Shown piece after piece: positions 7,106 through 14,764 of a stretch of 46,271 bases of DNA. The DNA lies in the NCBI GenBank assembly GCA_947471505.1, contig CANIWM010000053.1, forward strand, positions 1 through 46,271, given 5' to 3'. The position numbers and the translations under genes are program-made. The notes under the pieces were generated by a model. It had not been told where the DNA came from. It searched no databases and was given only the letters and a program-made list of their open reading frames with translations. Every line of letters starts with the position of its first letter. The stretch's first letter is position 1. The DNA comes from Chthoniobacteraceae bacterium (GTDB taxonomy: Bacteria; Verrucomicrobiota; Verrucomicrobiia; Chthoniobacterales; Chthoniobacteraceae).

Positions 7106-7119
7106 TAGCTAAAAAATCT

Positions 7120-7186
7120 CCACCGAATGGTGGTGTTTGGTGAGAACGGCCCGTTGCAGCGATGCAGCGGGCCGTTCTTTCTTTTC
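7120..7186 (+). terminator. Terminator after porin (bidirectional)
   Basis: A small hairpin (CCACC-gaat-GGTGG, 7120-7133) precedes a strong one (GAACGGCCCG 7144-7153 with CGGGCCGTTC 7168-7177) followed by TTTCTTTT. On the minus strand the small hairpin is followed by a run of six T (7111-7116 read in reverse), so the unit can also end transcription of the convergent gene at 7226-7768. Nearly the same sequence ends the second porin gene. Confidence 0.88.
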
Positions 7187-9578: not shown

Positions 9579-10973
9579 ATGAACAACAAACTAACATTGG
9601 CGGTTCTCGCCGTGCTCACTACATCGCTCCACGCAGGACCTGCTGCCGCAAAGGCACCTCAGCCTGCCGAGGGCAAACTCATCACCTGGGACGTGCAAGA
9701 CCGCGTCCGCTGGGAAATCAAAGACAACGCCTTTGACTTCAACAGCGGCGTCCGCACCATCAACGACGACAACTGGGTGCTCAACCGCTTCCGCCTCGGC
9801 CTCGGCGTCCAGCCGACCGACTGGCTCAAAGTCTATGCACAGACGCAGGACTCGCGCGAGTGGCTCAGCGACCGCGCTGACATCCCCGGCCGCTTCGGTG
9901 CGGATGGCGACGACTCGTTTGACCTCCGCCAGGCCTACATCGAACTCTCGATGAATGAATGGGGACTCAAAATCGGTCGTCAGATCCTCAGCTACGGCGA
10001 CGAGCGCCTCATCGGCCCTGCCGACTGGCTGAACCTCGGCAACGTGTTCGACGCCGTAAAGCTCACCTACAAAGGCGAGGGCTGGAGCGTTGACGCCTTC
10101 TCCGGCACCCGCGTCACCCACGACCGCGGACAATTCAACCAGAGCGATCTCTTCAACGGCAACGAGACACACCGCGAGCAAGTCTTCAGCGGCCTCTACT
10201 TCAACACCAGCGCACTGAACATCGCCAACACCGACCTCTACGCGCTGCACCTCCACCAGGCTGGAGACACGGACTTCTTCACACTCGGCACCCGCTTGAA
10301 ATCCAAGCCCGCCGCACCCGCACCGATGCAGCACGACGGCAAGAGCATGAAGCACGATGGCAAAGCCATGGTGTGCCCTGCACCAGCCGCAAGCCCGTGG
10401 GATTGGGACGCGGAGTTCGCATTCCAGTTCGGCGAAGTCGGCGGACGCGACCTCACCGCATTCGCAGGCCACGCCGGGATTGGCTACACGATCCCCGGTT
10501 GCCCGATCCACTCGCGCCTCGGCCTCGAATATAACTACGCCACCGGCGACGGAGATCCACTCGATGGCGACGTGGAGACGTTCCAAAACCTCTTCCCGTC
10601 GAACCACAAGTTCTACGGCTTCATGGACGCCTTCTCGTGGCAGAACGTCCACGACGTCGCAGTGAGCTGGAAAGCCAAGCCCTGCGCGGACGTGACCGCC
10701 CGCCTCGACTACCACGCCTTCTGGCTGGCCGACACCAACGACGTCTGGTACCGCGCCAACGGAACCACAGCCGTCCGTCCGCTGAGCCCAGCCGCCCGCA
10801 ACGCAGACAGCTACGCAGGCTCGGAAATCGACCTCGTCGTGACCTGGCAGGCGCGCAAGGAACTCGTCATCGAAGCCGGTGCCAGCCACTTCTTCGCAGG
10901 CAGCTACCTCGGCGACACCGGCGCGGAAAGCGATGCCAACTTCGGCTACGTGCAAGCGACCATCAGCTTCTAA
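9579..10973 (+). CDS. Alginate-export-type (AlgE-like) outer membrane porin
   Basis: This 464-residue protein has a signal peptide (MNNKLTLAVLAVLTTSLHA). It has the AlgE/alginate_exp pattern: an early RVRWEIKDN strand, LNRFRLGLGVQPTDWLKVYAQTQDSREW, then DLRQAYIELS and WGLKIGRQILSYGDERLIGPADW, which is strongly typical of that family. It ends in strand-like GYVQATISF with terminal Phe. At about residues 248-263 an insert carries two HDGK-type heptads (MQHDGKS, MKHDGKA) beside a Cys, probably on a loop and possibly metal-binding (inference). The predicted role is outer-membrane passage of anionic polymers or other solutes. The gene has its own A/C-rich leader and its own terminator. Confidence 0.85.
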   Translation: MNNKLTLAVLAVLTTSLHAGPAAAKAPQPAEGKLITWDVQDRVRWEIKDNAFDFNSGVRTINDDNWVLNRFRLGLGVQPTDWLKVYAQTQDSREWLSDRADIPGRFGADGDDSFDLRQAYIELSMNEWGLKIGRQILSYGDERLIGPADWLNLGNVFDAVKLTYKGEGWSVDAFSGTRVTHDRGQFNQSDLFNGNETHREQVFSGLYFNTSALNIANTDLYALHLHQAGDTDFFTLGTRLKSKPAAPAPMQHDGKSMKHDGKAMVCPAPAASPWDWDAEFAFQFGEVGGRDLTAFAGHAGIGYTIPGCPIHSRLGLEYNYATGDGDPLDGDVETFQNLFPSNHKFYGFMDAFSWQNVHDVAVSWKAKPCADVTARLDYHAFWLADTNDVWYRANGTTAVRPLSPAARNADSYAGSEIDLVVTWQARKELVIEAGASHFFAGSYLGDTGAESDANFGYVQATISF

Positions 10974-10980
10974 AACCTCT

Positions 10981-11045
10981 CCACCTTTGGGTGGTGTTTG
11001 GTGAGAACGGCCCGTTGTGTGATGCAGCGGGCCGTTCTTTTTTTT
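10981..11045 (+). terminator. Terminator after second porin, near-copy of that at 7120
   Basis: A small hairpin (CCACC-tttg-GGTGG, 10981-10994) is followed by GAACGGCCCG (11005-11014) pairing with CGGGCCGTTC (11028-11037) and eight T. The linker GTGTTTGGTGA is identical to that of the first porin terminator, so the two 3' units share ancestry. Confidence 0.92.
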
Positions 11046-11097
11046 GCGGTGGACGGCGGCACAGTCGGGTTGGGAGGGTGATTTGGGGAGAAATGGC

Positions 11098-11333
11098 AAT
11101 TACCACGTCCGGAGGACGAATTACCACCCCCGAAAGTCGAAGTACCACGTCAGGAGGGCGCGGTACCACGTCAGAAAGCTGAAGTACCACGTCAGGAAGG
11201 CGAAGTACCACGTCAGAAACCCGTGGTACCACCTCCGATGGCCAAAGTACCTGGTACTTTGCCCATCTCGCGTGGTACTTTGCCTTTCTGACGTGGTACT
11301 TCAGCTTTCGGACGTGGTACTTCACCCTTGTCT
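11098..11333. repeat. 21-bp phased iteron-like array with direct and inverted arms
   Basis: TACCAC-type cores start at exactly 21-bp steps at 11101, 11122, 11143, 11164, 11185, 11206 and 11227, with a TACCTG variant at 11248; the consensus unit is AAGTACCACGTCAGAAAGCG. The inverse core GTGGTA then occurs at 11272, 11293 and 11314, and at 11251 as a TGGTA variant, also at 21-bp steps. The arms meet in a palindrome, CAAAGTACC-t-GGTACTTTG (about 11243-11261). There are no spacers, so it is not CRISPR. Twenty-one bp is two helical turns, so all cores face the same side of the DNA. Because 21 is also seven codons, reading frames stay open across it (heptads such as YHVRKAK), but I do not call a gene. 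Confidence 0.93.
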
Positions 11334-11620
11334 GGTGAAATTTGCACATCCGTGCCTGAACAGGCTCAAATCGGTGGCTATATTTATACAGCCGTCTCTG
11401 GAAAGGCCGCTTTTCCAGCCGTCGGTTTCCATAGCTCGGAGAGGACTGACTCTACCTCCGGCAGGAGAACGTCCGTCAGGAGATGCGGACTTCTGCTCTC
11501 ACGAGCCCTTGCCGCCCATCCTCCTGCCGCCCAAGGAGACCGAGAGAGAAGATCTTCTGTCCAAATAGAACACGCCCGCTCTATAACAAGGCTCCGACGC
11601 GCCCCGCGCGGCTCTTTTTA
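11334..11620 (+). promoter_or_regulatory. Upstream region of the RND efflux operon
   Basis: This stretch of about 290 bases lies between the repeat array and the pump gene and has no convincing gene. It contains a 7-bp stem-loop (CTGGAAA 11398-11404 with TTTCCAG 11412-11418) and an AT-rich patch (TATATTTATAC near 11380) that could hold a promoter -10. I do not recognise a riboswitch. An in-frame extension of the pump ORF reaches back to 11483 but encodes a Pro/Arg-rich tail in front of the first transmembrane helix. Confidence 0.45.
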
Positions 11621-14600
11621 ATGAACCTCATCCGCAGTTCACTCCGCCGGCCTTTTACGGTCATCGTCGCCGTGGTGGCGCTGTGCCTTGGCGGGTGGAT
11701 GGCGATTTCGCGGATGGCGCGCGATGTTTTCCCCGCGCTGGGCATCCCGACGATCTATGTCGCGCAGCCTTATGGCGGCATGGACCCAGCGCAGATGGAG
11801 GGCTACCTCACTTACTATTACGAGTATCACTTTCTCTACATCACGGGCATCGAGCATGTGGAGAGCAAGAGCATCCAGGGCGCGAGCATCATGAAGCTGC
11901 AATTCCACCCCGGCACGGATATGTCGGCGGCGATGGCGGAGACGGTGGCGTATGTAAATCGCGCCCGCGCTTTCATGCCGCCGGGGACGCCGGGGCCGTT
12001 TATCACGCGGTTCGACGCGGGGTCGGTGCCGGTGGGGCAGCTTGTTTTTTCCACGGAGAATCCGGCGCGGACGGTGGGGCAAATGCAGGACGCTGCGCTG
12101 AATATGGTGCGCCCGCTTTTTGCCACGCTGCCCGGTGTCTCGGCGCCGCCGCCGTTTGGCGGGAGCGCGCGGACCATCGTGGTAAATGTAAAGCCGGACC
12201 GCTTGCGCGCGCTGGGATTTTCGCCCGATGACATCGTGCAGGCCATCGCCGCGGCGAACGTGCTGAGCCCGAGCGGCAATATGAATCTCGGCGACCAGTA
12301 TCCCATCGTGCCTGTGAATGCCGTGGTGAAAGTGCCGAAGGACCTCGAAGCCGTGCCGCTGCGCGTGACGCCGAACGGCGCGGTATATGTCCGCGACGTG
12401 GCCACCGTGGATGATCAAAGCGACATCGTGACGAGCTACGCGCTCGTGAACGGACGCCGCACGGTTTACATGCCGGTGACGAAGCGCGCCGATGCTTCGA
12501 CGCTGGCGGTGGTGGATTTGGTGAAAGCGAATCTGCCGAAGTTCCAGGCGGCTGTTCCCGACGACGTGAAGGTGTCGCTCGAAATGGACCAGACGCCCGT
12601 GGTGCTGCGGGCCATCGGCGACCTCGTCAAAGAAGGCGCAATCGGCGCGGCGCTGACGGGGCTGATGGTGCTGCTATTTTTGCGCAGCGTGCGAAGTGCG
12701 CTCATCGTGGTGATCAATATCCCGGTCGCGCTGCTATCGGCGGCGTTCGCGCTGTGGGTCACGGGGCAGAGCATACATCTCATGACGCTCGGAGGACTCG
12801 CGCTGGCGGTGGGCATCCTTGTGGACGAAGCGACCGTGGCCATCGAAAACATCCACGCGCATTTGCATCGCGGCGCGACCGCGGCCCGCGCGGCTTACGA
12901 TGCGACCGTGGAGACTGCCGTGCCGCGCTTGCTGGCGATGCTGTGCGTGCTCGCCGTTTTCACGCCCGCGCTTTTCATGACGGGCGCAGCGCGCGCGCTG
13001 TTTGCGCCGCTGGCGATGGCCGTGGGTTTTGCGATGGTGGCGTCGTATTTTTTGTCGAGCACGCTCGTGCCGGTGTTGTGCGTATGGCTGCTGCGCCGTA
13101 GCTGCGACGCCCCCGTCGCAGTAAGTGCCCGCGACGCCTCGTCGCGCAGTGTCATCGCCGCACTCGCCCGCCCGTTTGTCTTTGGTCGCTGGCTGCTAAT
13201 TCCCTGTTACCTCGTCGCCACGATATTCGCCGTGTGGGTTTTCGGTCGCGGCCTCGGCGTGGAGATTTTCCCGCAAGCGGACTCCGGCCAACTCGCAGTC
13301 CGACTGCGCGCGCCGGCCGGCACGCGGCTCGACCTCACCGAGCAGATGGGCCTCCGCGCGCTGGAGCTCATCAAGCGCGATGCGGGCGCGGACAACGTGG
13401 TCATCAGCATGGGCCTCGTCGGCGTCCATGCGTCGAACTACCCCGTAAACCTCATCCACCAATGGAACGCCGGACCGGAGGAAGCGTGGTTTTCCGTCGC
13501 GTTCAAGCCCGGCGTGCGCGTTCCCGAGCTGCGCGAAAAACTCCGCGCGACCTTCGCCGCCGAGCTTCCGAATGTGCGCGTTTCCTTCGAGCCGGCGGAC
13601 ATCGTTTCGCGCGTGATGAGCTTCGGCTCGAACACGCCCATCGAAGTCGCAGTCAGCGGCGCGAGCCTGCCCGACAGCCGCGCCCACGCCGAAAAGCTGC
13701 TCGCAAAACTCAAGACGCTCCCCACGCTCCGCGACGTGCAAATCGCGCAGGAACTCGATTTCCCCACGGTGAATGTGGACGTGAACCGAGAGCGCGCCGG
13801 ACTGCTCGGCGTTCGTGAAATGGACGTCGCCAAATCGCTCGTTCCTGCCACGACCTCATCGCGATTTACGCTGCCGATTTATTGGTCCGACCCGAAGACC
13901 GGCATCAGCATGAGCGTGCAAGTGCAAATCCCGCAGACGCAGACAAAGTCGCTCGAAGACCTACGCAACGTCCCCATCACCGCCGCCGCCGGAAAGACCG
14001 TGCCGCTGCGAAACATCGCGTCGATTTCGCAAGGCACGACGCCCGGAACTTACGAGCGCTACAACATGGCGCGCACCGTGAGCATCACCGCAAACATCCA
14101 CGGCGCCGCGCTCGGAACCGCAGCCGAACAAGTCCGCGCCGCCATCGCCGAAGTCGGCGCGCCGCCGCCAAAAACCGCAGTCGCCCTACGCGGACAAACG
14201 ATCCCGCTGGACGAATTGCTCGGCGGTTTCCGCAGCGGACTCATCGTCGCAATCATCGTCATCGTGCTGCTGCTGCTCGCGAATTTCCAAAGCATCCGCC
14301 TCACACTCGCCGTCGTCAGCACCATCCCCGCCGTCCTCGCCGGAGTCGTGCTCGCGCTGCGGTTCACCGGCACGACGCTCAATATCCAAAGCGCCATCGG
14401 AGCCATCATGGCCGTGGGCGTCGCCGTCGCGAACGCGATCCTGCTCGTCACATTTGCCGAGCGCGCCCGCCGCTCCGGACAGACCCGGCGCGAAGCCGCG
14501 CTCACCGGAGTATCGAGCCGCGCCCGCGCCATTTTGATGACCAGTTTCGCCATGTGCGCCGGCATGGTCCCGATGGCACTAGGCCTCGGCGAAGGCGGCG

Positions 14601-14764
14601 CACAAACCGCCCCGCTCGGACGCGCCGTCCTCGGCGGCCTCATCGCCGCGACCGCCGCAACGCTCTTCATCCTCCCCGCATTCTTCGCCCTGCTCACCAC
14701 ACGGAAAGTAAAACCAATCTCGCTCGACCCGGATGACCCGGAGAGCGGGCATTTCGCAAAATGA
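11621..14764 (+). CDS. RND-family efflux permease (AcrB/HAE-type)
   Basis: The start at 11621 gives a 1047-residue pump, the usual RND length, beginning with the typical MNLIRSSLRRPFTVIV first helix. Twelve helices and two large periplasmic loops are evident: N-half helices around LTGLMVLLFLRSVRSALIVVINIPVALL, and C-half helices around SGLIVAIIVIVLLLLANFQSIRLTL. In TM4 the proton-relay acidic pair is Asp402-Glu403 (GILVDEATVAIEN), not the Asp-Asp of AcrB. The YYYEYHFLYITGIEHVES segment matches a subfamily common in Acidobacteria and Verrucomicrobia. The substrate is not predictable. The TGA overlaps the ATG of the adaptor gene by 4 bp. A pair of palindromes sits in the cytoplasmic linker after TM6. 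Confidence 0.93.
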   Translation: MNLIRSSLRRPFTVIVAVVALCLGGWMAISRMARDVFPALGIPTIYVAQPYGGMDPAQMEGYLTYYYEYHFLYITGIEHVESKSIQGASIMKLQFHPGTDMSAAMAETVAYVNRARAFMPPGTPGPFITRFDAGSVPVGQLVFSTENPARTVGQMQDAALNMVRPLFATLPGVSAPPPFGGSARTIVVNVKPDRLRALGFSPDDIVQAIAAANVLSPSGNMNLGDQYPIVPVNAVVKVPKDLEAVPLRVTPNGAVYVRDVATVDDQSDIVTSYALVNGRRTVYMPVTKRADASTLAVVDLVKANLPKFQAAVPDDVKVSLEMDQTPVVLRAIGDLVKEGAIGAALTGLMVLLFLRSVRSALIVVINIPVALLSAAFALWVTGQSIHLMTLGGLALAVGILVDEATVAIENIHAHLHRGATAARAAYDATVETAVPRLLAMLCVLAVFTPALFMTGAARALFAPLAMAVGFAMVASYFLSSTLVPVLCVWLLRRSCDAPVAVSARDASSRSVIAALARPFVFGRWLLIPCYLVATIFAVWVFGRGLGVEIFPQADSGQLAVRLRAPAGTRLDLTEQMGLRALELIKRDAGADNVVISMGLVGVHASNYPVNLIHQWNAGPEEAWFSVAFKPGVRVPELREKLRATFAAELPNVRVSFEPADIVSRVMSFGSNTPIEVAVSGASLPDSRAHAEKLLAKLKTLPTLRDVQIAQELDFPTVNVDVNRERAGLLGVREMDVAKSLVPATTSSRFTLPIYWSDPKTGISMSVQVQIPQTQTKSLEDLRNVPITAAAGKTVPLRNIASISQGTTPGTYERYNMARTVSITANIHGAALGTAAEQVRAAIAEVGAPPPKTAVALRGQTIPLDELLGGFRSGLIVAIIVIVLLLLANFQSIRLTLAVVSTIPAVLAGVVLALRFTGTTLNIQSAIGAIMAVGVAVANAILLVTFAERARRSGQTRREAALTGVSSRARAILMTSFAMCAGMVPMALGLGEGGAQTAPLGRAVLGGLIAATAATLFILPAFFALLTTRKVKPISLDPDDPESGHFAK
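13102..13145. repeat. Two adjacent palindromes inside the RND permease gene
   Basis: CTGCGACG-cccc-CGTCGCAG (13102-13121) and GCGACG-cct-CGTCGC (13131-13145) lie side by side in frame. They encode the linker CDAPVAVSARDASSRS between the two halves of the pump. They resemble REP-type elements inserted in frame, where a flexible cytoplasmic loop tolerates extra residues. Confidence 0.7.

Follow-up and report, generated by a model that had tools for sequence, protein, structure and literature searches.

A 21-bp phased array in a Chthoniobacteraceae genome belongs to a class of intergenic arrays found across an order of Verrucomicrobiota

The array at positions 11,098–11,333 of a 46,271-nucleotide contig from a Chthoniobacteraceae bacterium (the window, read over its full length) is one member of a class of intergenic arrays with a 21-bp step that occurs across an order of Verrucomicrobiota. 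What the arrays of this class conserve best is the 21-bp step, above sequence. Many of its arrays lie upstream of the genes of one multicopy family, and the window array shares the period, the drifting units and the conserved short core of the class; the downstream gene for a helical-FN3 protein is absent.

The features of the array and its surroundings are collected in Table 1. TACC cores begin at 11101, 11122, 11143, 11164, 11185, 11206, 11227 and 11248, at exact 21-bp steps, the first seven reading TACCAC and the eighth TACCTG. GGTA cores follow at 11253, 11274, 11295 and 11316 in the same phase as the TACC series, the first reading CTGGTA and the remaining three GTGGTA. This confirms the description in an earlier note on this DNA of eight cores followed by four inverse cores, all at 21-bp steps and with the arms meeting in a palindrome; the extent given there is accurate within a few bases, and the array does lie between a porin terminator and the RND operon. 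No further run of at least three TACC at 21-bp spacing was found elsewhere in the window on either strand. In 11098–11335 the best 84-bp self-identity reaches 0.76 at the single step (lag 21) and 0.81 at the double step (lag 42), compared with a maximum of 0.50 over lags 6–70 in 2000 dinucleotide shuffles of the array, which was also recovered by TRF with periods of 21 and 42 and no 7-bp period. Twenty-one bp corresponds to two turns of B-DNA.

Table 1. Array, arms and neighbouring features in the window
Feature	Position	Strand	Basis
Outer-membrane porin gene (Alginate_exp), upstream neighbour	9579..10973	+	domain scan
Terminator-like hairpin of the porin gene, before the array	11003..11039	+	
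Direct arm, eight 21-bp steps, core TACC(AC)	11098..11251	+	core positions
Palindromic centre AAGTACC-T-GGTACTT, junction of the arms	11245..11259	.	GTACC-N-GGTAC centre recurs in sister arrays
Inverted arm, four GGTA cores	11253..11328	-	core positions
Promoter-like site TGAACA-16-TATATT, just past the array	11357..11384	+	1 found vs 0.2 expected
RND transporter gene (ACR_tran), downstream neighbour	11621..14764	+	ATG at 11621

The promoter-like site starts about 37 bp past the last core and, judged by its consensus match, is a candidate promoter for the RND operon, in which HlyD-type and OEP genes come after the RND gene. The porin terminator region (10976–11050) is itself a dispersed repeat, with an 88% identical copy at 7117–7185 and more in L085, and a 108-bp unit is present twice at 710–926 of the window (TRF score 341).

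Two further GTACC arrays with the same kind of centre lie on C42 and C56 of the genome to which the window belongs (G000; 6.07 Mb in 153 contigs), where C140 also carries a period-21 array that contains GGTACC. When at most two mismatches were allowed, the two-sided GTACC pattern was found in three of 40 family genomes (G000, G025 and G032), all of one genus. The arrays of locus A adjoin clpB in all three, those of locus B stand directly after an APH-type phosphotransferase gene in G000 and G032, and those of locus C occupy different slots in the porin/RND neighbourhood of G000 and G025, the G025 array lying between a porin gene and a DUF7486 gene whose 3' ends face each other; a locus D array was seen in G025 only. 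Among the more distant members of the genus, no array was found in the 1.5 kb or so around clpB in G026–G031 and G033, or over the same distance around the phosphotransferase gene in G025, G027–G031 and G033. Relatives of the array are thus present at two further loci of its own genome and in two sister genomes. The refuting condition set out earlier, that relatives lack phased spacing at this site, could be applied to the only two relatives in which the RND orthologue was located. An array lies nearby in G025. G027, whose RND protein is 87% identical, has none upstream; a clean empty site was sought in this genome, and the upstream gene proved to be a different one.

Across all species genomes the exact two-sided GTACC pattern returned 26 stretches. 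L065 and L071, both from one Verrucomicrobiaceae MAG, and L080, from a MAG named Prosthecobacter debontii, are degenerate 21-bp arrays like that of the window. L056 (Streptomyces sp. R302) is a near-exact 21-bp tandem repeat built on GGGTACCCGGTACCC with no unit drift and was taken as unrelated, and the rest were 7-bp repeats, GGTACC-rich Halobacillus stretches or chance matches. At loci A and B the motif CTCTGTCGGA seemed to be a shared terminal feature, but over 32 arrays it proved not to be general. Two observations were made beside these loci. The clpB gene that adjoins array A in G000 (L081, G000:C42, 4634–7888) encodes 1084 residues, compared with 851 in G032, and holds an IS200-like Y1 transposase domain (PF01797, residues 625–715) in frame between the AAA modules. 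In G032 (L087, G032:C48, about 390–720) an element of about 330 bp with inverted ends GGCACTAAGATAAG and CTTATCTTAGTGCC lies between the phosphotransferase gene and array B, and since G000 is without it, an empty site for this element exists.

Orthologous arrays can be compared unit for unit. Between G000 and G032, array A aligns with 84% identity over 455 positions and array B with 86% over 364 positions, each pair with one gap of exactly 21 bp and otherwise gaps of 1–4 bp; the 150-bp stretches that flank array A are just 43% and 48% identical. Over the two orthologous pairs the GTACC core is identical at 188/203 positions and the linkers at 506/616 (Fisher p = 1.9e-4), that is, differences of 7.4% and 17.9%, so that at these two loci of a single genome pair the core changes about 2.4 times more slowly. 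Fourfold sites are 81% identical in clpB, 83% in dxs and 91% in the phosphotransferase gene, and linkers that are 82% identical thus drift at about the synonymous rate. Simple homogenisation fails to explain the core because the units keep their own linkers. Outer units have lost the core and kept the 21-bp register. Array A and array B are 73% identical to each other within G000 and 82% within G032, which indicates that copying or conversion can carry an array from one locus to another. Identity is lower with G025, at only 64% for array A and 69% for the window array and its G025 counterpart.

The same alignments bear on the suggestion that the 21 bp encode seven codons of a heptad-repeat protein. 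One frame on each strand is open throughout the window array, as a coding repeat would require, but the direct and inverted arms read differently in the frames shown, the G025 array has stops in all six frames, and differences fall on the three codon phases as 35/274, 43/272 and 47/273, with no marked excess in any. We regard this coding reading as largely refuted and give it a negligible probability. The slower core and the lack of a marked codon-phase signal support the view put forward earlier in so far as the signal lies in the spacing and core of the DNA rather than in a protein.

Arrays with this step extend well beyond the GTACC type. The GTACC pattern reversed, which served as a control, matched 21-bp arrays in further genomes of the genus whose core is quite unlike GTACC, and in an 800-kb sample of G000 the period is a multiple of 21 in ten of the 18 tandem arrays of at least 60 bp; two of these ten, both on C8, lie inside a long open frame under a lax coding label. 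The units of arrays in this wider class are unrelated in sequence. One unit in G033 recurs on five contigs (C7, C15, C30, C38 and C89), two of the arrays lying at contig ends, with a match to the gene family described below on C7 only. Dyad symmetry of the units has a combined Z of 7.3 over 41 units, and about a quarter of the units reach p <= 0.05 individually; we build no argument on it. According to PMC6344855, the periods of DNA repeats are enriched for multiples of three, also once protein repeats have been set aside. Our searches of the open-access literature found no papers on arrays such as these.

Several repeats near this class were observed in passing. Two G000 arrays that precede orphan genes (L227, 18561–18750; L236, 17513–17591) have a period of 41, which is 1 bp less than 42. 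Tandem repeats of 7 bp occur in G026, G027 and G028 (L142, L158, L159 and L169), and a 7-bp array lies farther upstream of one family gene in G051. The arrays at L140 (4390–4700) and L240 (560–690) differ in their units, and after each comes one and the same promoter-like stretch (TTTACACACAATT...TTGATA), behind which both loci have a similar protein start, MAKLKWG; the L140 frame looks short or decayed.

Several arrays were found just upstream of orphan genes, and a profile of three such proteins (A1) gave 52 matches in eight of the ten genus genomes. Incomplete matches, matches at contig ends and those lacking a clear start were set aside, which left 33; removal of one with 173 bp of upstream DNA reduced these to 32 members from seven genomes. 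An array was scored where, no more than 700 bp upstream of the start, 84-bp self-identity at lag 21 or 42 reached 0.60. By this definition an array is present in 31 of the 32 testable members, the exception being G028:C70, versus 3/331 other genes, all 331 of them from G000. Leaving out the four members found via their arrays (G000:C23, G025:C142, G028:C128 and G033:C7) gives 27/28. At lags 20/41 the number of passing controls is also 3/331, and at lags 22/43 none pass. The best lag overall is 21, 42 or 63 for 31/32 members, and with periods of 18–66 allowed and the member without an array left out, the best TRF period is 21, 42 or 63 in 31/31 of the arrays upstream of family members in the genus.

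Of 194 genomes sampled throughout the phylum, four contained the family according to a profile of 30 members (A2), as did 24 of 147 genomes in the order. Outside the genus we considered the 27 members, from 13 genomes, whose match begins within the first eight model positions. An array is present in 18/27 of these versus 2/160 controls (Fisher p = 1.5e-16), and both passing controls are the genes that flank one G039 array; in both sets together 5/491 controls pass. The count rises to 21/27 at a threshold of 0.55, and the best lag is 21, 42 or 63 in 20/27. Members below 0.60 are G039:C121, G039:C1, G039:C152, G279:C42, G260:C1, G001:C35, G052:C21 and G051:C117, for three of which the best lag is a near-multiple (40, 43 or 65); G261:C29 prints as 0.60 and is not counted as passing.

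The sequence of the units does not follow that of the proteins. Two G033 paralogues with 81% identical proteins have a unit similarity of 0.57, compared with a shuffled mean of 0.50 and a 95% point of 0.62, and the correlation between protein and unit similarity within genomes is 0.02 (53 pairs), from which we conclude that the spacing persists while the sequence is replaced. Over all 406 pairs the Spearman correlation is 0.18 (p = 4e-4) and is carried by orthologues, whose units are 0.90–0.95 alike. The idea that each array is recognised by its own protein was rejected on the within-genome correlation. No family member was found on contig C53 beside the window array, or beside loci A, B and D in the stretches examined, and when six other array-adjoining genes were compared with the family, one gave a weak match in the FN3 region and five gave none. 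Directly before some family genes, on the gene side of the array, stands a short ORF that is rich in W, D and G and basic in its tail (such as MPWDTGFWDGGSWDSDVHTPPVNHETKPKKRKP); a loose pattern finds it at 11/58 family genes, at least two of them unconvincing, and the loci listed for it are L271, L284, L267, L294, L302, L312, L353, L357 and L358.

The family is uncharacterised, and the scanned members have no Pfam model at cut-off and no match in NCBIfam or PADLOC (10/10 proteins without a match in the latter). In PHROGs one neighbouring orphan, at L240, has clear FN3-type tail matches, which the four members scanned lack. The predicted structure features four helices at the N-terminus and a seven-stranded domain at the C-terminus (mean pLDDT 89.8, pTM 0.58). 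The C-terminal domain matches FN3 domains with a VIA-align Z of up to 11.1 over residues 140–232, and its best Foldseek E-values are 2.9e-3 against the PDB and 1.1e-4 against viral models, in a fold search that scarcely probed the N-terminal helices. The products of this multicopy family are thus predicted to combine helices with a fibronectin-III fold.

The arrays resemble several known systems in part. Plasmid iterons and multi-site operators are direct repeats about two helical turns apart that present one face of the DNA, with variable flanks and sometimes inverted arms, and the window array has direct repeats in phase at 21-bp steps. It differs from iterons in that the genome has many arrays, with unrelated units, at intergenic sites of chromosomal type, and in that no initiator gene is present among the identified neighbours (Alginate_exp and ACR_tran; clpB, APH and DUF7486 at the sister loci). 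A centromere-like site (parS/parC) would be expected at one or a few loci near par genes; this is not the arrangement here, and no par genes were found among eight window and neighbour proteins scanned. The earlier proposal of an iteron or centromere-like site is unsupported because there are at least three GTACC arrays in the genome and ten arrays with periods in multiples of 21 bp in the 800-kb sample, two of these inside a gene. REP/BIME elements with their RAYT transposases are short intergenic units in both orientations that are linked to a multicopy gene family. The present arrays share the short units, both orientations, the many loci and the link to a multicopy family; unlike REP/BIME elements they are strict 21-bp tandem arrays rather than dispersed hairpins, and no Y1_Tnp domain was found in 20 partner or neighbour proteins, the one in the G000 clpB not being a separate RAYT gene. 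STRRs are short tandem heptamer repeats in low-complexity intergenic arrays, of the kind seen as 7-bp arrays in G026–G028 and G051, whereas the window array is without a 7-bp TRF period. CRISPR arrays are near-identical repeats with unrelated spacers between them and cas genes alongside; here each 21-bp unit consists of a core of 5 bp and degenerate linkers, and PADLOC had no match for the ten partner proteins. Bacterial minisatellites (VNTRs) and the tandem repeats of promoter regions are tandem intergenic arrays that gain or lose whole units and have copies at several loci. Whole-unit change is seen here in the single 21-bp gap at each of loci A and B; in contrast to minisatellites, the period is held at 21 (42, 63) across unrelated sequences and families, and the arrays are tied to one gene family.

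The reading that we favour, at a little short of an even chance, is that the array is a cis-acting DNA platform in which sites lie on one helical face and spacing is conserved above sequence. Recognition units every 21 bp would place the sites of one arm on the same face of the helix, with the second arm inverted; a DNA-binding or DNA-bridging protein might then line up on these sites in register, and the array may have a regulatory or an architectural role in cis. In favour are the exact period, the two-sided GTACC arrays of the genus, the unit-for-unit orthology with its one-unit length differences, the slower core, the link to the gene family and the persistence of spacing while units are replaced. 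Because paralogues within a genome have different units, it is hard to see a single sequence-specific protein as the reader of every array. Further points against the platform are that the partner family is absent beside the window array and, in the stretches examined, beside loci A, B and D; that the G025 array most similar to the window's occupies another slot; that more distant genus members showed no array near clpB or the phosphotransferase gene; that nine of the 27 members outside the genus fall short of 0.60; that the slower core was seen at two loci of one genome pair; and that three of the 331 controls pass at lag 20 or 41. A fuller form of this proposal, which we offer tentatively and consider rather doubtful as a whole, is a two-part system in the order, made up of the helical and FN3 family and, upstream of most of its copies, a cis element that is coded by spacing and agnostic to sequence. 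A protein able to polymerise along one face of the DNA, or to form bridges there, would read this element, of which the window array would be a free-standing member. Lacking a partner gene, the window array would be an orphaned or independently used member of the class. The chief rival to the platform is a neutral or selfish minisatellite, in which copying with a built-in 21-bp step, by slippage or template switching, produces functionless arrays and the family link reflects where the process acts. Units are replaced quickly, a whole array has passed between loci A and B by copying or conversion, the G033 unit on five contigs accompanies the family on one alone, and outer units decay with the register retained, all as this rival would have it. 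The core that evolves more slowly than its linkers in orthologous units speaks against it, as does the recurrence outside the genus of the link to the start regions of one gene family, and a slippage mechanism with a preference for exactly 21 bp whatever the sequence is not known to us. We consider the minisatellite unlikely, though a serious contender.

Two further readings concern the window array at its own site. If the array were transcribed, its RNA could form a long hairpin that serves as an insulator, a terminator or dsRNA, and the folding check set out in the earlier note gave −131 kcal/mol for the plus strand (z −13.5) and −137.5 kcal/mol for the minus strand (z −12.3). The stability follows from the layout, because any such inverted repeat folds in this way. 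The mirror-paired units of opposite arms are not consistently more similar than others over eight arrays, although those of L085 and L086 lean towards higher similarity. The two-armed layout is not evident by eye in the family-upstream arrays viewed, some of whose 42-bp units hold inverted halves, and Rfam gave no match at gathering score over 10950–11700. Thus the part of the hairpin claim that concerns folding holds and the part that would need a pairing signal across arrays does not, and we consider an RNA role improbable. The remaining possibility is a multi-site operator or activator site for the RND efflux operon only, for which the promoter-like site a short way past the last core is suggestive. 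Similar arrays stand at unrelated loci, however, including clpB and the phosphotransferase gene; the comparable G025 array lies between 3' ends, and the G027 RND gene, albeit behind another gene, does without an upstream array. The operator proposed earlier is accordingly not borne out, and we consider this reading very improbable.

Tandem arrays are usually recognised by their sequence. Those described here hold their period from genus to genus and from family to family even as their sequence turns over, and they flag the start regions of a gene family whose members, where scanned, escape the models of Pfam, NCBIfam and PADLOC. Self-similarity at 21 bp in upstream DNA is also a simple genomic marker for further members of this family. 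The arrays raise the question of whether two-turn spacing is itself a signal in bacterial chromosomes, and of what reads it.
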